Source: Neoarius graeffei
Lineage: Eukaryota > Chordata > Actinopteri > Siluriformes > Ariidae
NCBI RefSeq assembly: GCF_027579695.1
Contig: NC_083577.1
Span: 57,132,283 to 57,196,282, forward strand
Reading direction: 5' to 3'
DNA: 64,000 nt
The notes under the pieces: model-generated
Databases searched by the model: none
The model's input: only the letters and a program-made list of their open reading frames with translations
Told to the model about the DNA's origin: nothing
Position numbers and translations under genes: made by a program
Shown: one piece after another, positions 1,560 to 63,158 of the stretch
How positions within the stretch are numbered: the stretch's first letter is position 1
How the letters are laid out: the number at the start of each line of letters is the position of its first letter

Positions 1560-1712
1560 CAGTTGTGTTGTCTCATCTCATCTCATTATCTCTAGCCACT
1601 TTATCCTGTTCTACAGGGTCGCAGGAAAGCTGGAGCCTATCCCAGCTGACTACGGGCGAAAGGCGGGGTACACCCTGGACAAGTCGCCAGGTCATCACAG
1701 GGCTGACACTTA

Positions 1713-2373
1713 TGCCGCTTTTCCACTACCAACGCGGCTGAGTTGGGCTGAATCGAGCTGAGTGGGGCTGTTGGAGTTGCATTTCGACTACAACCGCGCT
1801 GAACCGTGCTGGCTGGAAGTGGGTGGACACATTGGGTGGAGTTAGCGAAAGTGGGTGGACGTCACGTGATGTCGTTAGGCGGCGCAAACAGTGACATCAG
1901 TGACCTTTTAAGCGGTGGTCTCACGACCTGGATAGTAAACAATAAACATGGAGGACATGGAGTCGTTAGTGTTGCTGGTCTTGGTGCTGTGGCTTGTTGT
2001 CACCGACAACGCCAACAGATACTGGCAAGAGCGTATAGATGAGGCGAGGCGCATAAGGCTTCAGAAATTCTCGTAATTCTTCTTCTTCCGGGTTTACGGT
2101 GTTTACAGATCCCAGCGTGCTTGCGGGGCATGTGTGGGTGTATGAGGACACTCCTCCTGACCAATCAGTGCACAGGGGAGTGTCTCCTCACGCCCCTAGC
2201 CCCACTCGGCTCGGTTTGGCTCGCTTCAGCCCCACTCCAAAACAGTGCAAGTTTTGGGTGCTGAGCAGGGCTGAAGCGAGCTGAGTCGCGCCGCTCTGAG
2301 GTAGTCGAAACGCGAGCCGTGTCGGGCTGAAGCGAGCTGAAGTGAGCTGAAAAAGGGTAGTGGAAAAGGGCCA
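1713..2373. mobile_element. Harbinger-like non-autonomous element, copy 1 (inside a V-SINE)
   Basis: The ends are TGCCGCTTTTCCACTACC and GGTAGTGGAAAAGGGCCA; flanks are TTA (1,710-1,712) and ATA (2,374-2,376), consistent with the 3 bp TWA duplication of PIF/Harbinger. The host SINE sequence resumes cleanly on both sides. A 42-codon frame at 1,948-2,076 on the + strand is conserved in the other copies. Confidence 0.85.
1948..2076 (+). CDS. 42-codon conserved frame in Harbinger-like element
   Basis: It begins MEDMESLVLLVLVLWLVV and continues TDNANRYWQERIDEARRIRL to a TAA at 2,074. The same frame recurs in copy 2 (42 residues, two substitutions) and copy 3 (39 residues, first Met lost). It is probably a leftover first exon of the autonomous element's protein: the end reads TTCTC|GTAATT, which could be a splice donor. 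No function is assigned. Confidence 0.4.
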   Translation: MEDMESLVLLVLVLWLVVTDNANRYWQERIDEARRIRLQKFS

Positions 2374-3052
2374 ATAGACACAGACAACCATTCACACTCA
2401 CATTCACACCTACGGTCAATTTAGAGTCACCAGTTAACCTAACCTGCATGTTTTTGGACTGTGGGGGAAACCGGAGCACCCGGAGGAAACCCACGGGGAC
2501 ACGGGGAGAACATGCAAACTCCGCACAGAAAGGCCCTCGTTGGCCACGGGGCTCGAACCCGGACCTTCTTGCTATGAGGCGACAGCGCTAACCACTACAC
2601 CACCGTGCCGTCCGTAAGCCATAATAAACGAAACAAAGTCAATATTTGGTGAGATGACCCTTTGCTTAAAAAAAAATTGTTTCAGGTACAATGAGTGCAG
2701 TTTTATAAGGAAATGAGCTGTAGGTTTTATTGAGCATCTTACAGAACCAGCCCCAGTTCTTCTGGACACTTTAACTGTCAAACTCACTTCTTAATTTTGC
2801 AGCAAAACCCAGGAGCCTTCATTATTATTATTTTTTTAAATCTGAAAAGTGGTCTCATGTAATATGCTGCTCAGATACACACTTTTTTTTTTTTCTGTAA
2901 CATTGTGCTGGAAAGTGAACGTTTGGAACTCTAAAATGTTTGTGTACTCACTCGATAATGTAGAAGTCATAAAATAGAAATCTGTAACAAAGTTTGTATG
3001 AAAAAACAGGGTGCTTAAGACTTTTTTTTTTTTTTGTATAGTACACCGGTAA

Positions 3053-3939: not shown

Positions 3940-4246
3940 CATCCATCCATTATCTGTAGCTGCTTATCCTGTTCTACAGGCAAGCTGGAGCCTATCCCAG
4001 CTGACTATGGGCGAGAGGCGGGGTACACCCTGGACAAGTTGCCAGGTTATCACAGGGCTGACACAGAGACAAACAACCGTTCACATTCACACCTACGGTC
4101 TATTTAGAAACCGGAGCACCCGGAGGAAACCCATGCAGACACGGGGTGAACATGCAAACTCCACATAGAAAGGCCCTCGCTGGGCTCGAACCCAGGACCT
4201 TCTTGCTGTGAGGCGACAGTGCTAACCGCTACACCACCGTGCTGCC
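3940..4246 (-). mobile_element. V-SINE copy
   Basis: The tail-type sequence CCATCCATTATCTGTAGC, the central domain and the tRNA-like head (ACCACCGTGCTGCC) are present. An internal deletion removes the segment between ATTTAGA and AACCGGAGC. It begins shortly after Harbinger-like copy 2. Confidence 0.82.
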
Positions 4247-4698
4247 CATAAATAAATTTTTTTTTTTTAAAGTAAGTATAAGTGGACCACAGTGACTGTG
4301 TTTTACAAACCCCCTGGCGCTCCCCAGATCCCATTTTAGAAGTGTTTATTCAAAATAGGCTGTTAGTCTCCATATACTGAGTGAATGATCAGTGAACAAA
4401 TTGGTACATTCTGAAGTTTAAAGATTATATATTTTAGTACGCTCATTTAGGAAGCCTGCACAATTAACTAGGAGAACTATCTTGCTTCATAGCTGTCATG
4501 ATGGAAACTTTTCACTCACTTGCATATGTCATGCTTTGAGTGTAAAGTTTATGATTGACAGTAATGTACATCATGTACCACAATGAAATAAGTGGTGTCT
4601 CTTGCTTACATGAACCCTGCATGCTTATTTGGAATAAATATCATATATGCTGATTATCACTGGAGGCCAAGCAGGGACGCTGCAGAGGTACCCATTGA

Positions 4699-9543: not shown

Positions 9544-9558
9544 GGGGAAAAGTATTAT

Positions 9559-9669
9559 CTCATCTCATTATCTCTAGCCGCTTTATCCTTCTACAGGGTC
9601 GCAGGCAAGCTGGAGCCTATCCCAGCTGACTATGGGCGAAAGGCGGGGTACACCGTGGACAAGTTGCCA
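9559..9669 (-). mobile_element. V-SINE tail fragment with perfect target duplication
   Basis: Only the 111-base 3' part is present, from CTCATCTCATTATCTCTAGC to TTGCCA. It is bounded by a 15 bp duplication, GGGGAAAAGTATTAT, at 9,544-9,558 and 9,670-9,684. It was therefore 5'-truncated at the moment of insertion, as expected for LINE-driven retroposition. Confidence 0.85.
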
Positions 9670-9780
9670 GGGGAAAAGTATTATGTGTTTGTAAATCTAT
9701 TTTCCCCCCAAGGACTAACCTTCTGTTAAATATGCAGTTTATCAAGGGTTTTAAATGTTCCTAAATATATGCATTCCTAA

Positions 9781-10726
9781 GGCCCTGTCCACACGGCAAC
9801 GGATTCAGGTGAATCTGATAAAATTGTTTATCGTTTCGGCCTGGCGTCCACACGGCACCGGCGTTTTGGGTGCCCCAAAACGAAATCTTTTGAGAACGGG
9901 TTCCAGAGTGAAAAAATCTGGCAACGGAGCCGTTGCGAAGTCGTCTGGATGAGCAGAACGGATTTGTTTACGACGACGTCACAACCACATGACTGTCAGT
10001 GCTTCACGCCGGGTAGAAGTGTAACGAACTCGATGCGAGTTGTCAACAAATCCTATAACTTGGTTCATGAAACACGCTTACAAAATATTTTCACTGTGAA
10101 TATTTATTGTGTAATGGTGCAAAGTGAGAGAGAGAGCGAGTGAGAGAATAGCCCTTAGGGCAGAGCCTTTAGTCCAAACACTGCGGAAGCAGTACCAAAC
10201 CGCGCACCGCCCGTGCGCTTTCCAAAAACAATCCCGCCAGCGAAAATAGGAAAAAAAAGGAGCGATCTCACCTCTTCAGATGTTGGTTTAAGTCCGACAA
10301 TACATTCCTCAAAAAGGACGTAGAAGAACAAAGTAATCCATCAACGTGTAGCATTCAATTTATTCCAGACCATTAAAGAATTCTGGAGGATATCAGAATG
10401 TCGGCGTACCGGCTTCCATCTACCCCTGTTCATTCCTCTTTCCGCGTCTTTCGTTTTAAGCTACTGATTAATAATCAAAACTTTATGTGGCTAATGCTAC
10501 AGAAGAACGGGTTTATGCGCATGCGTCTATTTCTTCTATTGTTCTGGTGTCTCCGATGGGACCGTGTTACAGCGCACGTAGAGGTGTGGCATGTGTATTG
10601 CATCGTTTTCAGCAAGCGTTGCGTTGCCATATGTACCTGAAATTTTACTGATCCGTTGCCCATGTGGACGCGATATTTAAAAAAAAAAAAAATCTCGTTG
10701 CCGTTGTCGTGTGGATGTATGTAGCC
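9781..10726. mobile_element. GGCCCTGTCCACACGG-family element, copy 1
   Basis: The left end starts GGCCCTGTCCACACGGCAAC; the right end carries CGTTGCCGTTGTCGTGTGG and ends TAGCC. Internal blocks such as GGCGTCCACACGGCACCGGC and CATGACTGTCAGTGCTTCAC recur in copies at 28,528 and 44,641. It has no convincing protein and no clear flanking duplication. It probably belongs to the wider PIF/Harbinger/ISL2EU group, which is inference. Confidence 0.75.
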
Positions 10727-10802
10727 CAAGTCATGTGTGGATAAATTATGTCTTGTTAGATTTTTTTAAAATTCAATCCTATTTGATTAGCAAGCGGCAG
10801 AT

Positions 10803-11170
10803 CTCATCTCATCTCATTATCTCTAGCCGCTTTATCCTTCTACAGGGTCGCAGGCAAGCTGGAGCCTATCCCAGCTGACTACGGGCGAAAGGCGGGGTAC
10901 ACCCTGGACAAGTCGCCAGGTCATCACAGGGCTGACACATAGACACAGACAACCATTCACACTCACATTCACACCTACGGTCAATTTAGAGTCACCAATT
11001 AGCCTAACCTGCATGTCTTTGGACTGTGGGGGAAACCGGAGCACCCGGAGGAAACCCACGCGGACACGGGGAGAACATGCAAACTCCACACAGAAAGGCC
11101 CTCGCCGGCCCCGGGGCTCGAACCCAGGACCTTCTTGCTGTGAGGCGACAGCGCTAACCACTACACCACC
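10803..11170 (-). mobile_element. V-SINE, near full length, with target duplication
   Basis: A 13 bp duplication, GCAAGCGGCAGAT, flanks it at 10,790-10,802 and 11,171-11,183. All V-SINE parts are present except a few bases at the very 5' end of the tRNA-like head. It lies between GGCCCTGTCCACACGG copy 1 and a Kolobok-like element. Confidence 0.9.
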
Positions 11171-11262
11171 GCAAGCGGCAGATGTCTCTGAAAATTACAA
11201 ACTGTACTTTTAAAGAAAATTTAGGTTCTCTTAATCATATATTCTGCTACTGCTGATGTTAA

Positions 11263-15790: not shown

Positions 15791-16773
15791 CTAGTACTTT
15801 GTATGGCCTCCATGATTTTTAATGACAGCACCAAGTCTTCTAGGCATGGAATGAACAAGTTGGCGACATTTTGCAACATCAATCTTTTTCCATTCTTCAA
15901 CAATGACCTCTTTTAGTGACTGGATGCTGGATGGAGAGTGATGCTCAACTTGTCTCTTCAGAATTCCCCATAGGTGTTCGATTGGGTTCAGATCAGGAGA
16001 CATACTTGGCCACTGAATCACTTTCACCCTGTTCTTCTTCAGAAATCCAACAGTGGCCTTAGATGTGTGTTTAGTCATGTTGGAAAAGTGCACGACAACC
16101 AAGGGCACGGAGTGATGGTAGCATCCATCTGTGAATTCATGATGCCATCAGTGAAATGCAGCTCCCTGACACCAGCAGCACTCATGCAGCCCCACATAAG
16201 GACACTGCCACCACCATGTTTCACTGTAGGCACCATGCATCTTTCTTTGTATTCCTCACCTTTGTGACGCCATGCAGTTTTGAAGCCATCAGTTCCAAAA
16301 ACATTTATCTTGGTCTCATCACTCCAGAGTATAGAGTCCCAGTAGTCTTCATCTTTGTCAGCATGGGCCCTGGCAAACTCTAGGCGGGCTTTTTTGTGCC
16401 TGGGCTTTAGGATAGGCTTCTTTCGTGGACGGCATCCATGCATGCCATTCCTCTGTATTGTGTCACGGGAAATAGTCACCCCAGTTTGGCTTTCTACTTT
16501 TTTTTACATAACTGCAGTGAACTTGCATGCCGATTTTCTTCAACCCTTCTCACCAGAAGACGCTCCTGTCGAGGTGTTAACTTCCGTGGACGACCTGGAC
16601 GTCTCTGTGAGATGGTTGCAGTTCCATCTTTCTTAAATTTGTGTACCACTTTTGCGACAGTATTCTGACTGATAAGTAAAGCATTGCTGATCTTCTTGTA
16701 GCCTTCACCTTTGTGGTGTAAAGAAATTATTTTCTTTCTCAGGTCTTGTCATTTCTCTTCCATGTGGTGCCAT
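15791..16773 (-). pseudogene. Tc1 transposase pseudogene
   Basis: Reading from an ATG at 16,773, a short start segment (MAPHGREMTRPEKEN) is followed by a frame change. Then come a helix-turn-helix piece, ISNALLISQNTVAKVVHKF, and the GRPR-type motif PGRPRKLTPRQ. A stop follows, then the catalytic core [12 protein letters not shown], then another frame change near 16,080. The C-terminal SMSPDLNPIEHLWGILKRQ is intact. The usual second catalytic Asp motif is degraded to HFSNMTKH, so the enzyme would be dead even without the shifts. Confidence 0.85.
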
Positions 16774-24055: not shown

Positions 24056-25663
24056 CAACCCCGATTCCAAAAAAGTTGGGACAAAGTACAAATTGTAAAT
24101 AAAAACGGAATGCAATGATGTGGAAGTTTCAAAATTCCATATTTTATTCAGAATAGAACATAGATGACATATCAAATGTTTAAACTGATAAAATGTATCA
24201 TTTAAAGAGAAAAATTAGGTGATTTTTAAATTTCATGACAACAACACATCTCAAAAAAGTTGGGACAAGGCCATGTTTACCACTGTGAGACATCCCCTTT
24301 TCTCTTTACAACAGTCTGTAAACGTCTGGGGACTGAGGAGACAAGTTGCTCAAGTTTAGGGATAGGAATGTTAACCCATTCTTGTCTAATGTAGGATTCT
24401 AGTTGCTCAACTGTCTTAGGTCTTTTTTTTGTCATATCTTCCGTTTTATGATGCAGCAAATGTTTTCTATGGGTGAAAGATCTGGACTGCAGACTGGCCA
24501 GTTCAGTACCCGGACCCTTCTTCTACGCAGCCATGATGCTGTAATTGATGCAGTATGTGGTTTGGCATTGTCATGTTGGAAAATGCAAGGTCTTCCCTGA
24601 AAGAGACGTCATCTGGATGGGAGCATATGTTGCTCTAGAACCTGGATATACCTTTCAGCATTGATGGTGTCTTTCCAGATGTGTAAGCTGCCCATGCCAC
24701 ACGCACTAATGCAACCCCATACCATCAGAGATGCAGGCTTCTGAACTGAGTGCTGATAACAACTTGGGTCGTCCTTCTCCTCTTTAGTCCGAATGACACG
24801 GCGTCCCTGATTTCCATAAAGAACTTCAAATTTTGATTCGTCTGACCACAGAACAGTTTTCCACTTTGCCACAGTCCATTTTAAATGAGCCTTGGCCCAG
24901 AGAAGACATCTGCGCTTCTGGATCATGTTTAGATATGGCTTCTTCTTTGAACTATAGAGTTTTAGCTGGCAACAGCGGATGGCACGGTGAATTGTGTTCA
25001 CAGATAATGTTCTCTGGAAATATTCCTGAGCCCATTTTGCGATTTCCAATACAGAAGCATGCCTGTATGTGATGCAGTGTCGTCTAAGGGCCCGAAGATC
25101 ACGAGCACCCAGTATGGTTTTCCGGCCTTGACCCTTACGCACAGAGATTCTTCCAGATTCTCTGAATCTTTTGATGATATTATGCACTGTAGATGATGAT
25201 ATGTTCAAACTCTTTGCAATTTTACACTGTCGAACTCCTTTCTGATATTGCTCCACTATTTGTCGGCGCAGAATTAGGGGGATTGGTGATCCTCTTCCCA
25301 TCTTTACTTCTGAGAGCCGCTGCCACTCCAAGATACTCTTTTTATACCCAGTTATGTTAATGACCTATTGCTAATTGACCTAATGAGTTGCAATTTGGTC
25401 CTCCAGCTGTTCCTTTTTTGCACCTTTAACTTTTCCAGCCTCTTATTGCCCCTGTCCCAACTTTTTTGATATGTGTTGCTGTCATGAAATTTCAAATGAG
25501 CCGATATTTGGCATGAAATTTCAAAATGTCTCACTTTCGACATTTGATATGTTGTCTATGTTCTATTGTGAATACAATATCAGTTTTTGAGATTTGTAAA
25601 TTATTGCATTCCATTTTTATTTACAATTTGTACTTTGTCCCAACTTTTTTGGAATCGGGGTTG
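24056..25663 (-). mobile_element. Inner Tc1-like element nested in the 23.6-27.1 kb Tc1
   Basis: Long inverted repeats begin CAACCCCGATTCCAAAAAA and extend well past 60 bases, flanked by TA at 24,054-24,055 and 25,664-25,665. It carries a decayed DD34E transposase on the minus strand. The insertion lies within the transposase region of the outer element, so it is younger than that element. Confidence 0.9.
24277..25301 (-). pseudogene. Tc1 transposase pseudogene (DD34E)
   Basis: The frame opens with [20 protein letters not shown] and a helix-turn-helix and runs about 231 codons through [10 protein letters not shown]. It then meets an in-frame TGA after QHMLPSR near 24,609. The sequence continues in the same frame through IFQHDNAKPHTAS and SPDLSPIEN, meets a second stop, then shifts frame near 24,440 before ending VKRKGDVSQW. 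The spacing between the second Asp and Glu is 34 residues. The stops and shift make it non-functional. Confidence 0.88.
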
Positions 25664-28516: not shown

Positions 28517-28806
28517 CCACAGTCTTAGGCCCTGTCCACACGGCAACGGATTCAGGTGACTCCGATACAATTGCTTATCGTTTAGGCCTGGCGTCCACAC
28601 GGCACCGGCGTTTTGGGTGCCCAAAACGCAATCTTTTTGAGAACGGGTTCCAGAGTGGAAAGATCTGGCAACGTTGCTGTTGTGAAGTCGTCTGGATGAG
28701 TAGAACGGATTTGTTTACGATGACGTCACAACCACATGACTGTGAGTGCTTCACGCCGGGTAGAAGTGTAACGAATATCACCAGGAAAAAGCCTTACAGA
28801 GCACTA

Positions 28807-30364
28807 CAGGGAGTGCAGAATTATTAGGCAAGTTGTATTTTTGAGGATTAGTTTTATTATTGAAAAACAACTATGTTCTTGATGAACCCAAAAGACTCAT
28901 AAATATCAAAGCTGAGTATTTTTGGAAGTTGGAGTAGGGCTTTCTTAGTTTTAGCTATCTTAGGAGGATATCTGTGTGTGCAGGTGACTATAACTGTGCA
29001 TAATTATTAGGCAACTTAACAAAAAACAAACATATACCCATTTCACTCATTTATTTTCACCAGGGAAACCAATATAACAACTCAACATTCACTAATATAC
29101 ATTGCTGGCATTCAAAAAAAAAAAAAAAATCAGTGACTAATATAGCCGCCTTTCTTTACAAGGACACTCAAAAGCCTGCCATCCATGGATTCGGTCAGTG
29201 TTTTGATCTGTTTGCGATCAACATTGCGTGCAGCAGCAACCACAGCCTCCCAGACACTGTTCAGAGATGTGTACTGTTTCCCCTCCTTGTAGATCTCACA
29301 TTTGATGAGGGACCACAGGTTTTCTATGGGGTTCAGATCAGGTGAACAAGGAGGCCACGTCATTAATCTTTCTTCCTTTAGACCCTTTCTGGCCAGCCAT
29401 GCTGTGGAGTACTTGGATGCGTGTGATGGAGCATTGTCCTGCATGAAAATCATGTTTTTCTTGAAGGATGCTGACTTCTTCCTATACCACTGCTTGAAGA
29501 AGGTGTCTTCCAAAAACTGACAATAGGACTGGGAGTTGAGCTTGACGCCATCCTCAACCCGAAAAGGTCCCACAAACTCATCTTTGATGATACCAGCCCA
29601 TACCAGTACCCCACCTCCACCTTGCTGGTGTCTGAGTCGGACTGGAGCTCTCTGCCCTTTGCTGATCCAGCCACGAGCCCATCCATCTGGCCCATCAAGA
29701 CTCACTCTCATTTCATCTGTCCATAAGACCTTAGAAAAATCAGTCTTGTGATACTTCTTGGCCCAGTCTTGACGTTTCATCTTGTGTGTCTTGTTCAGTG
29801 GTGGTCGTTTTTCAGCCTTTGTTACCTTGGCCGTGTCCCTGAGTATTGCACACCTTGTGCTTTTTGACACTCCAGTGATGTTGCAGCTCTGAAATATGGC
29901 AAAACTGGTGGCGAGTGGCATCTTGGCAGCTTCACGCTTGACTTTCCTCAGTTCACTGGCAGTTAGTTTGCGCCTTTTTTTTTCAATGCGCTTCTTGCGA
30001 CCCTGTTGACTATTTTGAATGAAGCGCTTGATTGTTCGATGGTCACGCTTCAAAAGCTTGGCAATTTTAAGAGTGCTCCATCCCTTTGCAATATATGTCA
30101 CTATTTTTGACTTTTCTGAGTCCGTCAAATCCCTCTTCTGACCCATTTTGCCAAAGGAAAGGAAGTTGCCTAATAATTTTGCACACCTGATATAGGGTGT
30201 TGATGTCATTAGACCACACCCCTTTTCATTACAGAGATGCACATCACCTGGTATGCTTAATTGGTAGGAGGCTTTCAAGCCTATGCAGCTTGGAGTAGGC
30301 CAACATGCATAGAGAGGGTAATGTGGTCAACATACTCATTTGCCTAATAATTCTGCACTCCCTG
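28807..30364 (-). mobile_element. Tc1/mariner element, DD37E type, with IR/DR ends
   Basis: The outer inverted repeats start CAGGGAGTGCAGAATTAT and are perfect for 25 bases at both ends, flanked by TA on each side (28,805-28,806 and 30,365-30,366). A second, inner copy of the binding-site-like sequence with AATTATTAGGCAA lies near 28,996-29,020, and its mirror lies near 30,166-30,192. This gives the IR/DR arrangement known from Sleeping Beauty-like elements. It encodes the intact transposase described separately and is inserted in an AKAP11 intron inside another repeat. Confidence 0.9.
29130..30146 (-). CDS. Tc1-type transposase, intact, DD37E spacing
   Basis: This is an uninterrupted 338-residue frame beginning MGQKRDLTDSEKSK. 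I chose this Met because it opens the usual N-terminal helix-turn-helix and gives a normal Tc1 length; the frame is also open 44 codons upstream. The N-terminal half holds helix-turn-helix segments (about residues 10-48) and a basic linker (about 50-70). The catalytic triad is visible as D144 (LWTDEM), D237 (FMQDNAPSH) and E275 (DLNPIENLW). There are 37 residues between D237 and E275, three more than the DD34E of classic Tc1. It catalyses cut-and-paste transposition at TA sites. It sits alone in a 1,558 bp element with paired terminal repeats. The lack of disabling changes suggests a young insertion. Confidence 0.9.
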   Translation of the reverse strand: MGQKRDLTDSEKSKIVTYIAKGWSTLKIAKLLKRDHRTIKRFIQNSQQGRKKRIEKKRRKLTASELRKVKREAAKMPLATSFAIFQSCNITGVSKSTRCAILRDTAKVTKAEKRPPLNKTHKMKRQDWAKKYHKTDFSKVLWTDEMRVSLDGPDGWARGWISKGQRAPVRLRHQQGGGGVLVWAGIIKDEFVGPFRVEDGVKLNSQSYCQFLEDTFFKQWYRKKSASFKKNMIFMQDNAPSHASKYSTAWLARKGLKEERLMTWPPCSPDLNPIENLWSLIKCEIYKEGKQYTSLNSVWEAVVAAARNVDRKQIKTLTESMDGRLLSVLVKKGGYISH

Positions 30365-30669
30365 TAGTGAGAGTGAAACATGAGCTTGGATATTATTATT
30401 ATTATTATTATGTTCAGTGTTAGTTCACAGTAGTAATGCAAGAAGCAGAATAGTGACAGTAATAGTGAAGCAGAAACATGCAATTGTACAAACACTGCAG
30501 CTCTACAGCAAAATATTCATTTATGAAATGGTCTGATTCTTAACACCAGTAGTGCCAATGATGATCTCATTGCGATGCGATGCGAGTCGTCAACAAATCC
30601 TATAACTTGGTTCATGAAACGCGCTTACAAAATATTTTCACTGTGAATATTTATTGTGTAATGGTGCAA

Positions 30670-30671
<2 letters not shown>

Positions 30672-30706
<35 letters not shown>
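30672..30706. repeat. (GA)n microsatellite
   Basis: About 17 GA units in GGCCCTGTCCACACGG copy 2; copy 1 has only a few units at the matching place (about 10,126-10,145). Confidence 0.95.
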
Positions 30707-30708
<2 letters not shown>

Positions 30709-30826
30709 CTGCCCTTAGGGCAGAGTCAATCCCGCCAGCAAAAATAGGGAAAAAAAGGAGCGATCTCACCTCTTCAGATGTTGGTTTAAGTCCGACAATA
30801 CATTCCTCAAAAAGGGCGTAGAGGAG

Positions 30827-31228
30827 CAAATTAATCCATCAACGTGTAGCATTCAATTTATTCCGGACCATTAAAGACGCCGCCTTCCGCGTAGAATCAT
30901 ACGTCATCCTCGCCGCCATATTGGATATGCAAAGCGGAGAATAAAGATTCATGCGCTGCCTTTAACTGTACCAACAGGTTTACCGTTCAAATGAGATCAC
31001 ATGGGATTACCTTTCACAGGTGAGAAACAACAAATTAATCCATCAACGTGTAGTATTCAATTTATTCCGGACCATTAAAGACGCCGCCTTCCGCGTTGAA
31101 TCATACGTCATCCTCGCCGCCATATTGGATAGGTCAAAGCGGAGAATAAAGATTAGCTGCGTTTAACTGTACCAACAGGTTTGCCGTCCAAACGAGATCA
31201 CATGGGATTACCTTTCACAGGTGAGACT
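30827..31228 (+). repeat. Tandem duplication (about 204 bp period) with THAP-like exon fragment
   Basis: Two units, 30,827-31,030 and 31,031 to about 31,228, are nearly identical. Each holds CGCCGCCATATTGGAT, a YY1-like site, then a short open stretch ending ACCTTTCACAG|GTGAG, a strong splice donor. In unit 1 the stretch reads CAAFNCTNRFTVQ then RSHGITFHR, the pattern of the N-terminal half of a THAP zinc finger (Cys-x4-Cys, later ITFHRFP-like). In unit 2 the first Cys of this pattern is missing. No in-frame Met immediately precedes it. It is likely the first exon of a THAP-type transposon protein. Confidence 0.6.
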
Positions 31229-31534
31229 GGAAAAATACTTTTCATTGTATTTGGTCATTATAATGTAATTTTACAAACAGATTTTCCTGACTTTGTGGCT
31301 AATATGAAGTCTTGCGCATAATAGTTTATGCGCATGCGTCCTTACTACTTCTATTGTTCTGGTGTCTCCGAAGGGACCGTCTTACAGCGCCCCTAGAGGT
31401 GTGGCATGTGTATTGCATCGTTTTCAGCAAGCGTTGCGTTGCCATATGGACCTGATATTTTACTGATCGTTGCCCATTTGGACGCGATATATTTTTAAAT
31501 AACGTCTCGTTGCCGTTGTCGTGTGGATGTAGCC

Positions 31535-32297
31535 TACGTTCACTGAATGATTGTGAAGTGACTTCCTCAATCTGAGGATTGTGATATAATTTATTGCGTC
31601 AGAGTTCATCTTGATTGTCTTAAAAGAAGTGCTAATAATTAAATCGACCAGTAATCCTAAGTATGTCATCAGTCCTGAAGTGGCATTTGGCCTAAATCTG
31701 TCAACGTTTTGGTGTGGGATTGGATACTTCTCTTGCTAGGTTATGTGAAATGCATTACAGTTGTGATGATATACTTTTTGTTACAGGTCTGTGTTGCCAG
31801 TACAGCATGACGCAGGGACAATAGGTTTAGAAATGTTTCAGGAGAAAAGATTGGCTGAGTGTCCGGTTAAACATGCCATATTTCTTCAAAGTTTTATGGA
31901 CTTCTTATGTACTCCTGTTGCAATATTCAGTGTTCGAACTGTGCGTTCTGACTACTAATGATTTGTCAATTTATATGGCTGTGTTCTGTTTTTTTAGATA
32001 CACTTCATATGCTTACCTAGTTCTGCAGGAGGGGAGGATTTCACATTACAGGCAAGTTTTCATTTTCTTGCAGTTTGCAATAAGTAAACTAGATTTAATA
32101 GATTATTACATACATGTTTTAGACATTCGTTATGATGCAAATAACTTTTTTTTCTGATATTTTTGGCATGTAGATGCTTTGCACTATGATTACACAAAAA
32201 GTGTAATAAAACACTACAGTAGTGTCATGGAAGGGCCGCTATAACTTGCTAAATGATCTTCACAAAAAATAAATTCATCTCATTTTAATTTGCATAG
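31535..32297. other. AKAP11 intron; possible home of the missing short exon
   Basis: AT-rich. A candidate acceptor GTACAG at 31,805 and an open 20-codon stretch to 31,865 are the only weak match found for the exon expected between CLQQ and AVPSLP. Confidence 0.3.
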
Positions 32298-33854: not shown

Positions 33855-36800
33855 TTGTATATAACAAGAGGAACCAGAGAGATGTGGCCTCCCAAACTCT
33901 TCCCTCCCATTTCAAAGATTTATCTGGGTCACGTATCATCATTAGCTCTTTCTCCAAGAAGTCCAAGAGTAGAGAGAAGTCAACTTCTGATGTGTCAGGA
34001 TCAGTACAGAAGTCACCAACAACATGGCGTCGGGGTACGGAGAACGATTGGAACCTATCCACACCAAGTAACCGCCCAAAAAGTCATGTTACCTCGACAT
34101 CATTCACTGAATCTGATGATTCAGATTGCTCTAGTCCAAGTCCCATTATTTTTTTGGACGAGGTTGGTTATCAGAAAAGTCTGAAGGCGAAGCTTGATAT
34201 TCCAAAGATCCCTGTTCTTAAAGAGGGAGTAGAAGATTCTGACTCAGAAGTGTGTGAGTTTTTTGATAGTTTTGATCAATTCGATGATCTGGATCATTGT
34301 TTTGATTCCACTATGAAGGTGCCAAAAGAACAGATTCTCATTACCCAGAAAAAAAAGCCATCTGACAGTTCTGTTAGTAATTCTGATTCAAAATGTGGCT
34401 CAACAACAGCAATGAACCCTCACAAGTTTGACCACAGGACTCTTCCAGCCAATATCAAGAAGCCCACTCCACTTAAACCAGGATCTCCATATAGTATACC
34501 GTCTGACGCTCCAGATTCTCCACGACCAGTGAGGACATCCTGCGAGGAGAGCGGGGGACTCTTCAGCCCAATCCACTCCTCAGCATTTAGTCCACTGGGA
34601 GAAGGAGGAGCCTTGGAGTATTTTTGGAAAATAGATGGAGATGTTTCAGAATTGCGCAAACCACAGGACCTTTGTTCACTGTATAAGACTTATTCCGATT
34701 TTGCAAGCAATCTCTCGAAAGAAATTCTTGGATCTGTCTGTGGGTACTCCTCTCCTGTTGACATTAACATTAATAAGAACTTGAGTTGTGTGTGCCATAA
34801 AGAATTCAGAAACTCTAACGGCTATCTGATGAAACTGTCAGATATTCAGGAGACGGTCACTATTGCCAAATCGCACTCGCAGTCTCTGAAGGATGGGATT
34901 CAGAAGTTTGCCACAGACTTGGTTGAAATGAGCATTGGCAGTGCCTTAAGAGATTTACAGAGAGGAGTGTCCTCTTGCACTACAACACTTTGCCATTTAG
35001 CTGCTAGGCTGACATCTTCAGTGTTTCATATGGCTTTTCAAGAGATAGGAATGCGCCATGCATATGTGTTAAAAGAGCGTGCCATAAACGGATTGGCTGG
35101 ATTCCTTGTTGGGGAAGCAGTCTCTGGAGCTCTGAAAGAGTTTCTGTTTGTGAAAAAGCAGATTTTTAACAACACTGTCACCAGATTTGCAGCTGATCTT
35201 GCTGAGGAATTAATATTTGAGGGAATTATGGAGGTGTGCCAATTCTCATATCCTTCTACCCCTCTTACCCCAAAAGATTGGTCGTTTGAGCAAGAAGAGG
35301 AAGTGGTTTGTTCTTATGCTTCAGATCTTTCGGAGTCAGTTCTTCAAGAAGCCTTCATAGAACTGTCCCAAGCTGATGTGACTTTCACAACACAGGCTGC
35401 CATAAGCGTGTCACTGGACAATATCTGCTATGTCAGCGCTGAAGATGCATCTCAAACCACAAAAATCTGCAATGCCCAATTATGTTACCAGAATTCGCAG
35501 TTGCCTGTCCAGGCGGGAAACCAAGAAGAAGAAGAAGGCGGCTGCACTGTAAAGAAAGCTTTGTACTGTGTTTCTGGAATGGCCAGTTGTGTTCCAGTTC
35601 CAGCAGCTGGCAAAGCTATATCCTACCTGCAGAACCCAGAGGAAATGTGTCAGTATAAATCTAGCATTAGTCACACTTGCCAGAGTAGCCCCAAAAGAAG
35701 CATTTGTTTCCAAGGAAGGGCTGTGACCTCTACTTCAAACACATCCGCTGCAACATTTTCTGAGTCAGTGCTAGGTATTTCCAAAATCCGTAATGTCTGT
35801 GGCAGTCTTGGGAATGCGTCTACAAGTGCTGATGAGAAACCTCCAGTGGGAAACAATTTTGAAAGCGTTTCTGGTGCTTTGGTTGAGACAATTGTGGGTG
35901 AAGCGTTTGACACCATGTCCACAAGCAAAATGAAGAAAAAAGTGGACGACTGTGCTGATTTCTTAAGTAAAAATGCTGGGGGTCGGATGGCTACGTGTAC
36001 TGGCATAGCAAAATCCCAGGATGTGGCATGTCAGAGTTTACCACCTTATGATTTGTGCTCATCACAGAAAATGTTGTCTTTAATTCCTAAAGGAGATTTG
36101 ACTGAATCATTGTCATGTAACTCTCAGCCTCACATACCTTCAAAGAACACAGATAAAACAATCTGTCAATCTGGCTTAAAAAACATGCATCCACTTGAAA
36201 AATTCTCGCTGGAAGTCCAGTCTGCCGTGATGAAGGATACTTTGGAAGTACCCAGTTTTGAAGCGGGCATTCGTGGAAGCAGAAAAGTTGTCTCAGAAGA
36301 GATGCTTAATGGCAGCACTGGAATAAAATCCAGCGGAAGTCCTGGCACTCCTCCCTCAACTCCCCAACAACCGTCAGACATCTCATGTGAGAAAAAGCTT
36401 AAACAGTTTTCAAAGAAGCTGAAGGGCAAACTTGCAAAGGAATTCTCCCCTGCAACACCCCCACCCACCCCTCATTACGAGCCCACTCCAGGACTTGAAG
36501 AGGGCTCCGATTCAGAGAAGGAGGAATTCATGCTGAGGCTCATGAGGTCCCTTTCTGAAGAAGCTGTCAACAATGAAGATGAAGATGATGAGCAGGAAGA
36601 TGGTCTCGACTCTGCGACCCATAACACAGAGCAAAGTCCCAGTGTGGGAAACAAAATGATTGAGAGAGGGGCTCTGCATTATGCAGAGCGTTTGGCATGC
36701 CATATTGTTTCCATGGCAACTGAGATGGACACTTTAAGCATTGGTGATGCAAGTAAGCCAGAGAATGAAGAAGGCAGTGAGAGATTTGCTTTACACAGTG

Positions 36801-38136
36801 CACAATTCTCAGAACAGACCTTGAATTCCTTGTGGACATATGCTGGGGAAATTGCTGGGGAAGTCATCAGTGATGTAAAGAGGATGATGAGTTCCAGCAA
36901 TTGCCGTCACAAAGCAGTCAAAAGAGGATCGTTTAAGTCAGATAAGCATCCCTGTGGTGACTGGAAAGACTGTCACTTTGTTAGCAAGAATAGCCAGTGG
37001 TCAAATGATCTCATTCCACCAGTTCCCAGTCCTCAGAGTAACCCTTCAAGTAAAATCTCAACCCAGTCTGAGTACCCAAGCTGTGATGGTGTTCCTGATG
37101 AGTGCACCGGATATGTTATAAAGGTGCTTAAAAAAGACGGAGGAAGTCGGGAACTTATACTGGACCAGTATGCCAGTCAGTTGGCTTATAAATCTATCAA
37201 ATCAGGCCTAGCTCATGCTGCACAAAAAATAAAGCAGAAGTCTCCTTTAAGACTTGGCTCATCTCAACATTTACACCCTGAGGGCAGCCGTAGCATTTCT
37301 AAGATCCCACCATCGGAGTCTTCTCCTGCCATTCTTACCCGAGGACAAGAAGGGTCCTCTAGTGAGTCCATGCAGTGTCAAGATGTTGAAAACATTGGTA
37401 GGAAAGAATACATGGAACTTGTGAACTTTGCCGAGTCATTGGCCTACAATATTACATGTGATGTTACAAGAAAGCTAAGAATGTCCTCGATTAGGCTTCC
37501 AAAATCGCTTACAGATTCATGTCTCTACAGAAAGTCAAATGTTGAAGACATGGCAGGAAATTTAATCAAAACTGCGTTTTCATGTTCAATGCTACCATAC
37601 ACCAGGAAAAACAGGCAATATCATAGCACCAGCAGATTAGATGATGGAAATTACAATAATGGTGTTATGCAAGTAATTGATCATTATGCCAGGAAGATTG
37701 TTGATGACACTTTGGAAATGACTCTGGGGTCTACAGCTGTTCAGACAGCAGAAGAGAGGAGGTCTTTGGAACTCGGTTCTTTCACCGAAAAGCTGACGGA
37801 GGCATACAAGACTTGCTGGTACTGTCAAGCAAGAGATTGCTCGTTTTGCAAAAATTGTCACCTTAAGTACCATGGAATGCAAAAGAGAATACAGCAAGAC
37901 CCTGATACAATGGTTGGTCTTGAAATTCCCAAAATCCATATAGATTTGGACAAGAGAGCAGCTTTTGCTGAAGAAATGGTATCTGCAACACTTGAGAAAG
38001 CGAAGAAGGAACACAGTAGCACCAGCTTAAATGCAGACAGTGGGATTGGTCATGATGGCGCAAGCTTTGCAGAGAGCCTTACCACGGAGATTATGACGTC
38101 CGCATTGTCCAACATCTGCCAAACCATCAACCTCAG
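33855..38136 (+). CDS. akap11: AKAP11 giant central exon
   Basis: This 4,282-base exon encodes about 1,427 residues. The acceptor (GTTGTAG) ends at 33,854 and the donor is CTCAG|GTAACC. The start in this frame is set by the splice join (g|tt giving Val), not by an internal Met. Visible features in order: an acidic FFAT-like motif, EFFDSFD, at 34,256-34,276; about ten or more repeats of an amphipathic segment of the type (F/Y)AxxLxxxIxxxA, which resemble the PKA-RII-binding helices of AKAPs; Pro-directed Ser/Thr clusters near 36,340-36,500 (for example PGTPPSTPQQP); a Cys/His cluster at 37,814-37,873; and the final segment GASFAESLTTEIMTSAL. A single very long exon is typical of AKAP11. I see no frameshift or premature stop; the exon leaves in phase 2. 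Confidence 0.96.
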
Positions 38137-38352
38137 GTAACCAAAAAGATGACACATTTTCTAAACATTTTTGCAATACCTTAAGTTTATACTACTGAAG
38201 AAATGTGGCTCATCAGTTACTCGAATATTGTGGGTTCCTTAGTCATTAACGTTTCCTGTATTGGTGTAATACTGGGCAGATTTAGGGACGTGATTTAAAT
38301 GAATGACAAATATTCAGTTGCTTTTTCCTTAATTGCACTTTCTGCCATTATA

Positions 38353-41937: not shown

Positions 41938-42744
41938 TGTGTGAATGTCATAGCAATATTGGGCTTTTGATAATTTCTTCGAACTGTTCTTTTTCTGTGG
42001 CTGAATGAATGAATGATTGTACAACATACATTTTTAATAGAAAAAAAACAAGAATTTGGTGCACAAGGTCAAAGTTAAACACACAGGGCTGAAAATTAAA
42101 CATACAGAACACCTAATATTTGATTAAATGTCCCTAAGCAGGTTTCATCTCGACACTTTTGGTAGCCATCAACAAGCTCCTGGCAGAATTCCAGTTGGAT
42201 GTTTGGCCACTCCTCTTGGCGCATTTGTGAGCATTCAATTAAATTTCAGTATTTCCTGGCACAGACCTGACTTTTAAGCACAATCCACATATTTTTGACA
42301 GGCTTGAGGTCAGGACTTGTTTTAAGCTTGATGTTAGCCTGCTTTATTCATATCACAACCAGTTTTGATATGTGTTTGGGGTCATTGTCCTGTTGGAACG
42401 TCGAATTGTGTCCAAGTTTCAACATTCTAGCTGATGGTTTGAGGTTATGCTGAAGAATTCTGAGGGAATCCTCCTTCTACATTATTCCATCCACTTTGTG
42501 CAATGCACCAGTTCCACTAGCAGCAAAACAGCCCCAGAGCATGATACTACTACCACCACCATGCTTAACAGTTATGCTCATTGTGGCCATACGATTCAAT
42601 ATTTGTCTCATCTGACTGTAAAACTTTTCCTCCAAAAGGCCTTTTCTTTGTCCATGTTGTTAGCTGCAAACTTTAGCTGAGCTTGAAGGTATCAATTTTG
42701 GAGCAAGGACTTCTTCTTTCTTGAATGGCAGCCTCTCAGTCTAT

Positions 42745-43356: not shown

Positions 43357-44640
43357 TATGGTGAGGTGTAACTTGTTTGATTGAAGACAGTGTTCCAGTA
43401 GCTTCCAGGTCATGGCAGGCCTGTGCCTTGGTGATTTCCCTTGGTAGGTTGTTCCTGACCATGTGAAACAATTTCCTCTCAGCTGAGGGTGCCACTTTGG
43501 GACTTCTTCCAGTGAAGTGGTTTGGCAAAGTAACTACACCTCTCAATAACTTGTAATTACATATAATTGTTTGAACTGATGATCTTGGAATCTGCAGTTA
43601 TTTAGGAATGGTTCCAAGGGAAGTTCCTGAGGATCTTTGATCCTCTTTCTGAGATCTGCACTGAGCTCCTCAGACTTTCACATTGTACTGTGAGTTGGTT
43701 AATCCAGTGAGTGTTTTCAAACAAACCCTTTTGATTTTGGCACAGAGAAACTGCCAGCTGTTAGTCAATCGTGATCACTAACAGGAAGTTAAGAGGCCTT
43801 GGTAAGTTAAAATACATTTTGGAGCCTTCAGTACCACTGAATTAATAATGTAAGCGGGTGTAATTTCTGACCCTGTATGTATAATTTTGAGCCTGTGTTG
43901 ATTACAGAAAACCCAAAATAAATTAAAACTTGTGCACCAAATTTGTGTTGTGTTGTTTTTTTTTTCTATTAAAGATGTACGTTGTACAATCATTCTGCCA
44001 CAGGAAAGTTCAAAGAAATCACTGAAAGCTCAATATTGCCATGAGAACATTTATGTCTGTGTATGTAAACTTCTGACTACAACTGTATAAACCATTATCT
44101 GTTTGAAAACCAACATTTAATTAAACTTGATCATAGATGAGTTTAAAGGTCTTGACTGCAAAGTTGTCTGATTTTAAGATTTTTTAATTTTATTTATTTT
44201 TTTAAATTGTGCATGGCATTTTCCTGTGTCTCACAAAAACAATATCATGCGGATGAGATGTGATCATTTTGATGTGCTGAGGGTCACTTTTCTCTGTTTT
44301 GGGACTGAATATCCTACCTCTTGAGGTAAACAGTATGGCCTCACGGAAATGGCTGAACGCGAGGAGCTTAAACTAATTAACATAACTATGGAACTGCGTC
44401 ACATCAAGATGGCGACGCGCGGAAAACATCGTGACTCTGCATCGACCTTGGAGGGTTTTAAGTCGCAGGGATGTAATTTGTGGTCAACATTCGCGAATAG
44501 ATCCATGAAACAAAAGACAAATATATCTTTTCTCCGTTACTGCTTTTGTGTTATCGTTTCTTTCTCTGCAAGATCAAAACATTGGGTGTATAACTACGCA
44601 CTCGCTACTGTGGAGTCGAGTCCATGCATTCTAAGGCTAA

Positions 44641-45414
44641 GGCTACATCCACACGACAACGGCAACGAGATTTTATTAAAAAAAAAATCGCGTCCACATG
44701 GGCAACGGATCAGTAAAATATCAGGTACATATGGCAACGCAACGCTTGCTGAAAACGATGCAATACACATGCCACACCTCTATGTGCGCTATAAGACAGT
44801 CCCATCGGAGACACCAGAACAATAGAAGAAGTAGACGCATGCGCATAAACCCCTTCTTCTACCTGGCGTGAAGCACTCACAGGAACAAGCACACAACAAC
44901 AAGAAGAAGATGGCTGCGACTACGCGAGGAAATCGTGCCTTCTGTGTGTACAAATTAGTTTTATTAGTGTGCATGGTTTTATATAACTTTCTTATTGTGT
45001 GTGAACATTTTGAAAAGCATTTTTATATAATTTATATAACTTTTTATATTGTGTGTGAACATTTTGAAAAGCAGTCTTATTCAATAAAAAAAAGAAATTC
45101 AAGAAATGGTTCAGTTACTTGTTTATTTAAAAGAAAAGCTGTATACAAAAGTGAATGCAATGCAGTGGTTCATACAAAACAGCGAGAGTGCTGCTTGTTC
45201 TAGTCATGTGGTTGTGACGTCATCGTAAACAAATCCGTTCTACTCATACAGACGACTTTGCAACGGCGCCGTTGCCAGATTTTTTTCACTCTGGAACCCG
45301 TTCTCAAAAAATATTGTTTTGGGGAACCCAAAATGCCGGTGCCGTGTGGACGCCAGGCCGAAACGATAAACAATTTTATCAGATTCACCTGAATCCGTTG
45401 CCATGTGGACAGCC
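44641..45414 (-). mobile_element. GGCCCTGTCCACACGG-family element, copy 3
   Basis: It is inverted relative to copies 1 and 2: the left edge reads GGCTACATCCACACGACAAC and the right edge GAATCCGTTGCCATGTGGAC. The shared block around GTGTGGACGCCAGGCCGAAA confirms the family. On the + strand a frame beginning MAATTRGNRAFCVYKLVLL (from 44,908) occupies the unique middle; its reality is doubtful. Confidence 0.72.
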
Positions 45415-47445: not shown

Positions 47446-47987
47446 CACTATATGGCCAAAAGTTTGTGGATACATGATCCTTACACCCATATGTGGGCCT
47501 TCCCCAAACTGTTGGAAACCACAGACCACAAAGTTGGAAGCACACAGTTGTATAGAATGTCTGTGTACTGTAGCATTACGATTTCCCTTCATTGGCACTA
47601 ATGGTCGCAAACCTGTTCCCCCATGACAACGCCCCTGTGCACAAAGCAAGCTCCATGAAGACATGGTTTGCCAAGGTTGGAGTGGAAGAACTCGAGTGGC
47701 TTGCATAGAGTCCTGATCTCAAGCCCACTGAAGAACTTTCGGATGAATCAGAACAAAGACTGAGCCCCACGTCTCTTCACTTGACATCAGTGCCTGACCT
47801 CACTAATGCTCGTGCGGGAATGTGCACAGACTCCACAGCCATGCTCCAAAATCTAATAGCCTTCCCAGAAGAATGGAGGATATTATAACAGCAAAGGGGG
47901 ACTAAATCTGGAATGAGATGTACATGAAAAGTACATATGGGTGTGTGTTGGTCGGGTGTCCACAATCATTTGGCCAAAAGTTGATGT
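47446..47987 (+). mobile_element. Tc1-type remnant in AKAP11 intron
   Basis: The left end CACTATATGGCCAAAAG pairs with CATTTGGCCAAAAGTTG at the right. A + strand reading includes PHDNAPVHKASSMKTWFAK and GVEELEWLA followed by a stop and SPDLKPTEE, a Tc1 transposase C-terminal domain in which the Asn-Pro-Ile-Glu motif is degraded. Inactive. Confidence 0.8.
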
Positions 47988-59560: not shown

Positions 59561-59589
59561 GAAATTCCCAAATAAGCGTTGCTAAAAAA

Positions 59590-59956
59590 TCTCATCTCAT
59601 TATCTCTAGCCGCTTTATCCTGTTCTACAGGGTCGCAGGCAAGCTACAAGCTGACTACGGGCGAAAGGCGGGGTACACCCTGGACAAGTCGCCAGGTCAT
59701 CACAGGGCTGACACACAGAGACACAGACAACCATTCACACTCACATTCACACCTACGGTCAATTTAGAGTCACCAGTTAACCTAATCTGCATGTCTTTGG
59801 ACTGTGGGGGAAACCGGAGCACCCGGAGGAAACCCACGCGGACACGGGGAGAACATGCAAACTCCGCACAGAAAGGTCCTCGCCGGCCCCGGGGCTCGAA
59901 CCCGGACCTTCTTGCTGTGAGGCGACAGCGCTAACCATTATACCACTGTGCCGCCC
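59590..59956 (-). mobile_element. V-SINE copy
   Basis: It is full length on the minus strand, from CTCATCTCATTATCTCTAGC to the head complement ACCACTGTGCCGCCC. A short deletion occurs in the segment before CTGACTACGGGCGAAAG. No target duplication is obvious. Confidence 0.87.
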
Positions 59957-59957
59957 T

Positions 59958-60122
59958 CTTTTTATATTTGTATATATAAATACTTAATTTATTTTAATTT
60001 ATCTAGAAGTTTTCCTCTATTTCTTTTCTCTGTTTATCTGTAATGAGGCTGCTGGAATCTTAATTTCCCTGAGGGAACCGTCACAAAGGGGTCAATAAAA
60101 AGTTTTATCTAATCTAATCTAA
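59958..60122 (+). mobile_element. LINE 3' tail
   Basis: AATTTCCCTGAGGGAACC followed by CAATAAAAAGTTTTATC and TAATC repeats is a LINE 3' tail of L2-like type. Only about 165 bases are present. Confidence 0.65.
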
Positions 60123-61048
60123 GTCTGCATTCGTGAACACACTTCTGGGATCATATACTGTATAACACACTAATGACCAGATCTGCACATTGCACCACCT
60201 TTATTGTATGTTTCGGAGGAAACTGTAAAGTACTTCCATCAAAGATCCATCAAAGAACTGGAGGTGTTTCTTCTTAAAGGAAAAACAAGTTAAGCTGTAG
60301 GCGTGATGAATGTAGGAGTGACCCCGCTCCTTATAAAGTACTTCATATTGTTGTTCGGTGTTTCCATTACTTTATCTACCCACAGGGTTTGCTTGAATGA
60401 CTTCATCATGTCTCACAATTTGACCGAAGGCAACTGAATTGCAATTAGCACTGCACCATTGCAACACCTGCTTAATCATTCTACCCAACAAATACCAATG
60501 AAAGACATCCTGTACGCCTCTGCATCTAGCATCATTCAGGAAGTTAGGACACATTTACGCTGCAAGTAAACGTGGACCAAAATCTGATTCTTCTCCTCCC
60601 CCCCCCAAAAAAAAAAAAAAAAATCTTGTTTTTAATGATAGCATGAACAGAAAAAAAATGATATTGACTAATAATTTACATTTGAAATTCTGATTTGTTG
60701 CTTTGGAAAAATAGGTGAAGAAATGGGAGTCAATGCATTCATTCATTCATTCATTCATTCATTCATTCATCTTCGGTAAACATTAACCTGATCACAGGTG
60801 GCTGTAGATCTGGAACCTATTCCAGGAACAAGGACAGAGGCAGAGACACACCCTGAATTCGATGCCAGTCCATCATATTTTTTCTTTTGATTTTCATTAT
60901 TGTCATTTCTATCAACACCAACAAACTAGAATAAAACAAGACAAGTTTTCTCAGTGACTATTCCCAAACGTGCAATTGCTATTACTTTCAATATGAACAG
61001 ACAATCTGTCTTCTTTAAAATATCTTTTTGTGTATTTTAATACAAAAT
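60123..61048. other. Unassigned region with decayed SINE-like piece
   Basis: Contains an A-run near 60,607 and a diverged piece at 60,770-60,880 (CCTGAATTCGATGCCAGTCC) resembling old SINE tails; otherwise nothing. Confidence 0.45.
60735..60770. repeat. (CATT)n microsatellite
   Basis: About nine ATTC units, followed by a diverged SINE-like piece with TGGAACCTATTCCAGGAAC. Confidence 0.9.
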
Positions 61049-61425
61049 AAGGCGGCACGGTGGTGTAGTGGTTAGCACTGTCACCTCACAGCAAGAAGGT
61101 TCCGTTCCGAGTTCGAGCCCGGTGGCCGACGAGGGCCTTTCTGTGCGGAGTTTGCATGTTCTCCCCGTGTCCGCGTGGGTTTCCTCCGGGTGCTCCGGTT
61201 TCCCCCACAGTCCAAAGACATGCAGGTTAGGTTAATTGGTGGCTCCAAATTGACCGTAGGTGTGAATGTGAGTGTGAATGGTGGTTTGTCTCTGTGTCGG
61301 CCATGCGATGACCTGGCGACTTGTCCAGGGTGTACCCCGCCTCTCGCCCATAGTCAGCTGGGATAGGCTCCAGCTTGCCTGCAGCCCTGCACAGGATAAG
61401 CGGTTATAGATACTGGATGGATGGA
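61049..61425 (+). mobile_element. V-SINE copy, + strand, with target duplication
   Basis: The head GGCGGCACGGTGGTGTAGTG with A-box, a B-box-like GAGTTCGAGCCC, central domain and tail ending TACTGGATGGATGG are in order. A 12 bp duplication, TTAATACAAAAT, lies at 61,037-61,048 and 61,426-61,437. It is the only + strand V-SINE here and shows the family layout most clearly. Confidence 0.9.
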
Positions 61426-61975
61426 TTAATACAAAATGAATTATTTTGTGCCATTGTTTAGAACTGTGCTGGATGAAGGCCATATTAAAAAGATAACATA
61501 AAATTAAATTGATCATCATTCATTCATTTATGAAATGTCACTAAGTGTTTTATCCTGGTCAGGGTCACAGGGGATCCAGACCTGATCACTGGAACACTGG
61601 ACACAAAGCAGGAATACACCCTGGATGGGATGTCAGTTCACACACGTATTCACGCCTACGGCCAATTTAAAATAGCCAATTCACCTTCTGGTATGGTTTT
61701 GGGAGGTGGGAGGAAACTGTATACCGTTCAAGGTCACAGTGGCTCAGGGGCCTGTTCCTTGGCCATAAAGCAGAATTACACCCTGGATGCAATGGCAGTT
61801 CATCATGGGAAACTAGATTTCAGTAAATCACAACTGAACACCGGGGCTTGCAGTGTGAATGCAGTCTTACTGATGCTAGGAGTCTGAACTGTCAAGCACA
61901 ATTATTGTGCACTCAAATCATAGACACTCAGAATCTTTCCTTGCTGCTTGGGTGGTACAATTATCTTTTGTATCT

Positions 61976-62344
61976 TCCATCCATTATCTGTAGCCGCTTA
62001 TCCTGTGCAGGGTTGCGGGCAAGCTGGAGCCTATCCCAACTGACTACAGGCAAGAGGCAGGGTACACCCAGGACAAGTCACCAGGTCATCACAGGGCTGA
62101 CACACAGAGACAAACAACCATTCACACCCACATTCACACCTACGGTCAATTTAGAGCCACCCATTAACCTAACCTGCATGTCTTTGGACTGTGAGGAAAA
62201 CTGGAGCACTTGAAGGAAACCCATGCAGACACGGGGAGAACATGCAAACTCCACACAGAAAGGCCTCTATTGGCTGCTGGGTTCAACCCCAGAACCTTCT
62301 TGCTGTGAGGTGACAGTGCTAACCACTACACCACCGTGCCACCC
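61976..62344 (-). mobile_element. V-SINE copy
   Basis: The tail CCATCCATTATCTGTAGCC, central domain and head complement (ACACCACCGTGCCACC) are present with moderate divergence, so this is an older copy. Confidence 0.85.
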
Positions 62345-62554
62345 AAGTCAGAAAATACAATAACAGTTACTGATTACTGCACTGGACGTGTTAATACAAT
62401 AGTAATTCACATTAAAACCATGAGCATAATAAAGACAAGATCCTTTGCTTTAATAATAATACACAACTGTACACACTGAGACAAAAGAGTACAAAGAGTA
62501 CCATTCAGTGTCTCTGGGAGACCTTTTGTACCTTTAGAATGTATGTTTTACCTA

Positions 62555-62810
62555 CACTCTCAGAAAACAAAGTACATCATTGTACCTTGAAGGGTACAAC
62601 AGCTTGTCACTGTGGCAGTACCCTCGAAGGTACTTATTTGTACCATGGGAACATATATATACGTTTTTGACCCTAAAAAGATACACATAGTTACCTGGAA
62701 GTCCAATAATGAGCCCTAGGGGGTACATTAGTGTAGATTGTACCTTGGGGGACAGAAATGGACTCCTACTGTACCCCTATTTCTGAAAGCTCGAGGGTAC
62801 CCTGAAGTGC
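62555..62810. mobile_element. GGTAC-rich MITE
   Basis: It starts CTCTCAGAAAACAAAGTAC and contains many GGTAC/GTACC half-palindromes, ending near CTATTTCTGAAAGCTCGAGG. A reverse-oriented partial copy lies at 3,053-3,219, cut by Harbinger-like copy 2. Confidence 0.6.
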
Positions 62811-63017
62811 CATGGTAAATCTTGTTTTTGTTTCACCACTATCTTCTTATGGAATAGCCTACCTAGTCATATACAGAAGCTCAGACACAAACTCAAGTCT
62901 CAGGTTAAAGAATTCTTATTCAATAGTTCTTGTTCTCATTCGGTATTAAACATTTACTTATGGTATTATTTATTTATTTTACTATGTAATTTTTAACTCC
63001 GCTTGTTATTGTATGCG

Positions 63018-63158
63018 GGAAGCCATGGCCAAATGGTTACAGAACCAGATTTGGGACCAGAAGGTTGCTAGTTCAAGTCCCTGAACCAGCAGGACTGGCT
63101 CAAGTGCCCTTGACCCCTAACTGCTCTGGCAAGAGTGGTGGCATACCTTGTGTCTGAT
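63018..63158 (+). mobile_element. tRNA-derived SINE, third type
   Basis: A tRNA-like head has the A-box CATGGCCAAATGG and a B-box-like GTTGCTAGTTCAAGTCCC, followed by GACTGGCTCAAGTGCCC. It abuts the chimeric SINE. The head is too diverged to call a working tRNA gene. Confidence 0.55.

Follow-up and report, generated by a model that had tools for sequence, protein, structure and literature searches.

A full-length, probably autonomous DD37E/TRT transposon among about 400 copies in the genome of Neoarius graeffei

Introduction

The 64,000-nucleotide stretch of the Neoarius graeffei genome analysed here (the window) harbours what is almost certainly a full-length and probably autonomous member of the DD37E/TRT family of Tc1-like transposons, one that has spread to about 400 copies across this genome and ranks among the youngest of them. 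It carries four repeats, an open frame and the catalytic residues, is bordered by a TA duplication, and has many relatives of low divergence, including a near-identical copy elsewhere in the assembly. A preliminary description, made from the letters of the window alone, had proposed an intact DD37E Tc1-type transposon with IR/DR ends, and the exact coordinates, the four repeats and a frame of 338 codons bear this out.

Results

Anatomy of the element

The complete TRT (DD37E, Tc1-like) transposon spans 1558 bp (28807-30364, minus strand) and is supported by its ends, the TA duplication, the open frame, its roughly 400 copies in the same assembly and the presence of empty sites. It begins with CAGGGA at 28807 and ends with TCCCTG at 30364. 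The outer terminal repeats, at 28807-28831 (plus strand; the 3' end of the transposase strand) and 30340-30364 (minus strand; its 5' end), are 100% complementary, so that the two 25-base ends previously reported as identical are indeed perfect reverse complements. The inner repeats lie at 28995-29017 (plus strand) and 30163-30185 (minus strand), and a 12-bp core, ATTATTAGGCAA, starts at positions 14 and 188 of the element and, as its complement, at 1351 and 1534 (numbered in transposase orientation); it is present twice per orientation in 37 of 40 genome copies. The target-site duplication occupies 28805-28806 on the left and 30365-30366 on the right, where 63 exact empty sites have a single TA. 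A longer, 30-bp inverted repeat returned as an arm by a repeat finder was rejected: its five extra bases (CACTA/TAGTG) belong to the target and not to the element, because the target site, CAC-TA-GTG, is itself a palindrome and the flanks differ in other copies.

Sleeping Beauty has the IR/DR arrangement, in which each end carries one outer and one inner site. The window element resembles it and the DD34E Tc1 elements in this arrangement, in the TA target and in a related catalytic domain (PDB: 5cr4, 2.4e-18), but differs from them in its D-E spacing, 37 residues where they have 34, and in being only 23-34% identical to the DD34E sequences sampled from this genome.

The transposase

The transposase gene (29130-30146, minus strand) comprises 338 codons and a stop, as judged from its translation, a match to Pfam DDE_3 and the match to Sleeping Beauty 5cr4; an alternative upstream in-frame ATG would give a protein of 359 aa. 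All three catalytic acids announced by the preliminary description are in place (D144, D237 and E275), with 37 residues separating D237 and E275. DDE_3 matches with an E-value of 1.7e-16 and 60.8 bits (cut-off 28.6), and the Sleeping Beauty catalytic domain was the sole PDB sequence match at E 0.001. The protein thus has the DDE_3-type catalytic domain and N-terminal helix-turn-helix region of a Tc1/mariner transposase, the latter with HTH_38 (24.2, cut-off 27) and HTH_23 (22.3, cut-off 24.6) both below their Pfam thresholds. Chance is excluded as the origin of the element, because of the DDE_3 match and of 807 exact matches to its ends in the assembly, against 0 in a reversed control.

By analogy with the Tc1 family, the transposase would bind the four repeats, an outer and an inner site per end, via its N-terminal helix-turn-helix region and pair the element ends; its DDE RNase-H-type site would then excise the element, which would be joined at a TA that is duplicated in the process.

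Searches with the TRT protein in viral contigs and in prokaryote genomes returned no confirmed relatives, phage records gave no match to it, and viral contigs gave no relatives of the DD34E protein of the window; records of the window's own genome were possibly excluded from these viral, prokaryote and phage searches.

Assignment to the TRT family

Judged by its sequence, the window element is a new copy of the already described DD37E/TRT family (DrTRT, Mariner-14_DR), because it agrees with the published family in length, in D-E spacing, in its inner repeats and in the signature motifs. DrTRT/Mariner-14_DR is described as a 1563-bp element with a 338-aa transposase of the DD37E type, and the TRT motifs as (W/F)TDE, Q/HDNA, SPD/HLNPIE and GRKK (PMC5630946). 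The window element compares closely with this account: it has 1558 bp and 338 aa for an expected size of about 1.56 kb and about 338 aa, shares the 37-residue spacing, carries WTDE, QDNA, SPDLNPIE and GRKK in its translation, and is flanked by a TA duplication, with a single TA at empty sites and TA/TA borders in 37 of the 40 best copies. Short terminal repeats are likewise combined with the subterminal inverted repeat, TGTGCATAATTATTAGGCAACTT, which is identical at 28995-29017 (23/23 bases of the 5'-SIR printed for DrTRT) and one base off at 30163-30185 (22/23 bases of the 3'-SIR). The outer repeat differs, measuring 25 bp here (27 with the TA) as compared with a published 38 for DrTRT; the same table lists 27 for many other species (PMC5630946). 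The preliminary description had also matched the element to a smaller family reported as recently active. DD37E/TRT is such a family, and in the text seen recent activity is proposed for it from intact sequence and transcriptome matches, not from a transposition assay (PMC5630946).

Other families are set apart by their published descriptions. DD35E/Traveler, DD36E/Incomer and DD38E/Intruder are described as Tc1-like elements that have recently spread in ray-finned fishes (PMC7731502, PMC7093834), and differ from the window element in their D-E spacing. DD37E/Mosquito (ITmD37E) and DD37E/L18 have the same spacing but are described as clades separate from TRT and Tc1 (PMC10379824), and ITmD37E has the motifs MDDE and PDLA (PMC5630946), unlike the Tc1-type motifs of the window protein.

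Comparison with DD34E elements

The preliminary description had contrasted the element with other Tc1 copies of the window, to which it ascribed a DD34E spacing, and alignment supports this for two copies, at ~15803-16485 and ~24459-25301. Both are broken, and the first has lost the second D itself; two more weak Tc1 fragments lie at 42264-42557 and 47577-47738.

We consider it exceedingly improbable that the element is an ordinary DD34E Tc1 whose spacing was altered by a small insertion, with no separate DD37E branch. The spacing difference from the sampled DD34E rows is indeed a single 3-residue gap at one place of the alignment, and published trees place TRT inside the larger Tc1 family (PMC5630946); against this stand the low identity to those rows, additional gaps elsewhere and the separate clades in our tree. 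This tree has 17 rows, five of TRT, seven of DD34E and five of IS630-like sequences, with all TRT and DD34E rows coming from the element's own genome and the DD34E rows being chance neighbours within fetched loci. The TRT rows form one clade (support 100/99) and the DD34E rows another (87/74), with the IS630-like rows far away. Placement within DD34E Tc1, the outcome that would have spoken against the preliminary description, is not seen in this tree: the element falls outside the seven sampled DD34E rows. Their group has a support of just 87/74, three of the rows are short fragments and long branches meet, and the tree indicates separation from these sampled rows and no more.

PF13358 was discarded as a source of DD34E references, since the sequences read (eight, of 30 loci and 20 further) were mostly of another, IS630-like group. 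Among the best DDE_3 matches in the assembly (150 scored of 141,453 first-look candidates) there are many near-identical open IS630-like frames (FIDEAGFNL..., SPFLNPIEEFFS; e.g., loci L055, L062 and L078-L082), which are clearly distinct from Tc1.

Copy number in the assembly

The window's own assembly (2.34 Gb in 38 contigs) contains 807 exact matches (405 + 402) to a 27-mer consisting of TA and the 25-bp end, and 410 (197 + 213) to a 28-mer from the coding region, with 0 in the reversed control of the former and 0 in the control of the latter. From these 807 ends and 410 coding matches we estimate roughly 400 TRT copies in this genome, and the exact counts suggest that few copies lack the gene. 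When the first 100 end matches listed are considered, 94 combine into 47 facing pairs and 6 are single; 40 of the 47 pairs enclose 1517-1568 bp, and the coding 28-mer lies inside 24 of 26 end pairs on contig C1 among the matches listed.

The remaining seven of the 47 listed pairs are longer, three measuring 1.9, 2.4 and 2.9 kb and four, all on C1, 6.8, 6.8, 7.2 and 12.3 kb. That such copies with extra DNA between their ends are a mobile composite, the window copy being its simple form, is a reading to which we give almost no credence: in each of the four long C1 pairs one end does stand at its normal distance from the coding motif, but they have identical flanking DNA on both sides and are therefore segmental duplicates of one interrupted copy, not cargo-carrying TRT elements. 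They lie within C1:19391109-25712055 (loci L098-L105), where one TRT copy interrupted by other DNA was duplicated with its surroundings over ~6 Mb. Also on C1, two tandem pairs (C1:79140809-79145043 and C1:79333184-79337418), 192 kb apart, contain two TRT copies each at equal spacing; one copy from each pair (L026 and L027) has identical flanks, so that these two are one insertion copied by segmental duplication.

Insertion site and neighbourhood

The element interrupts a dispersed repeat that is not part of it (28523-31535, approximate limits), which is recognised by its relatives in the window at 9777-10719 and 44640-45412 and by matches to the left flank. The best 40 scored matches to the left flank, of 1036 candidates, have 97-100% identity and, with the window included among them, represent 39 other places. 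When the two flanks are joined with a single TA, the assembly yields 63 exact matches (29 + 34; 0 in the control) and, with at most two mismatches, 1675 (852 + 823; 0 in the control); the commonest variant among the matches listed has a C for the T of the window in the right flank. The empty sites carry a single TA, and both element ends and the 2-bp duplication are therefore fixed. They belong to further copies of the dispersed repeat and are not this locus in a second individual. In the relative at 9777 the sequence surrounding the insertion point is missing, so it does not qualify as a clean empty site; none of the best 40 left-flank places is among the 63 exact empty sites, and one of them, C1:45454445, is an empty site with one mismatch, among the matches listed. 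The dispersed repeat, whose ends read CTGTCCACACGG... and whose insertion site is present without interruption at least 1675 times in the assembly, is probably a non-autonomous DNA transposon, judging from its sequence.

TA is found on both sides in all of the 40 best TRT copies except L019, L025 and L031, which have CA or TG at one or both sides, next to TA-rich sequence.

The transposon is ~3.5 kb upstream of a 1418-aa open frame without a Pfam match (33884-38140, plus strand), which we take to resemble a large exon of an AKAP11-like anchoring protein. Self-comparison reveals another repeat that occurs many times within the window (1568-2610, 3940-4247, 9557-11171 and 59589-63516).

Divergence, decay and age

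The genome-wide copy search and divergence estimate advocated in the preliminary description returned the ~400 copies and no high divergence: the best 40 of 1745 first-look candidates, a sample skewed by its selection for the best matches, have a mean pairwise difference of 0.53% (at most 1.03%) and differ by 0.27% from the column majority. All 40 share the same six outermost bases at both ends; the 25-bp ends match perfectly in 38, and in 30 the frame is open over 338 or more codons. Four extra C1 copies, two taken as the first in the list and two chosen for lacking the coding 28-mer (one of them also short), share 97.7-99.2% identity with the window copy. Just one of the four keeps the 338-aa frame, so the best-match sample understates the decay of the whole TRT family.

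The changes among the 40 copies, with CpG-adjusted expectations, amount to 62 nonsynonymous (61.9 expected), 6 stops (4.5 expected) and 12 synonymous (20.8 expected). Neutral decay fits these changes, with no purifying selection and with synonymous changes somewhat below expectation. If neutral substitutions accumulate at 3-5 per billion sites annually, a difference of 0.3-0.5% from the source would correspond to between about half a million and two million years.

The window copy may be a fixed, inactive relic of a burst dating back some hundreds of thousands of years to a few million, its intactness reflecting youth alone, a reading that we place just short of an even chance. The neutral pattern of the changes speaks for it, as do the broken frames in 10 of the 40 best copies and in 3 of the 4 copies picked by position; what argues against it is that the window copy and its closest relative, described below, show zero substitutions over 1558 bp and are younger than the bulk of the family.

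A twin copy and recent movement

This closest relative, L009 on contig C12, differs from the window copy by one single-base indel and no substitution over the full length, and lies at its own TA between flanks unrelated to those of the window copy. Six substitutions separate the pair from most of the other 38 copies, and at three of these positions all 38 differ. One marker of the pair has two copies assembly-wide, only those in the window and in L009, and another has four. Since the window copy and L009 have a private marker in common, one or more insertions must postdate those changes; by its sequence, the sublineage of the two appears to have moved recently, and the window copy is among the youngest of the ~400 TRT copies. 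The recent insertion proposed in the preliminary description is hence upheld by the low divergence of the copies, the one-indel twin on another contig and the mutation private to the two.

At five residues the protein encoded by the window copy departs from what the majority of the 40 copies have in that column, and its predicted enzyme might therefore be impaired. The window copy may accordingly have been mobilised in trans by the transposase of other copies, its own enzyme being weak or dead behind an intact frame, and 29 other open-frame copies among the 40 could have supplied the activity. We regard this as a real possibility that we nevertheless incline against: the catalytic residues of the window transposase are intact, and the at least one insertion with the private change would be explained equally well by a working enzyme.

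Discussion

The window element is best read as a full-length and probably autonomous TRT copy of recent origin. A stronger proposal is that TRT is still jumping in this species, in which case the very young sublineage would have insertions polymorphic between individuals and the window copy's enzyme would work in cells in its natural form, a DD37E counterpart to Sleeping Beauty, which was reconstructed; we advance this tentatively, as a rather unlikely reading.

At the least, N. graeffei offers a well-documented recent TRT burst, with exact empty sites, a twin insertion and ~400 copies, which are near full length in most of the cases where the ends were examined. If the family is not active, the finding agrees with what published work would predict for the genome of a ray-finned fish; if it is still active, the element may lend itself to use as an insertion tool of natural origin and may mark recent changes in the genome.
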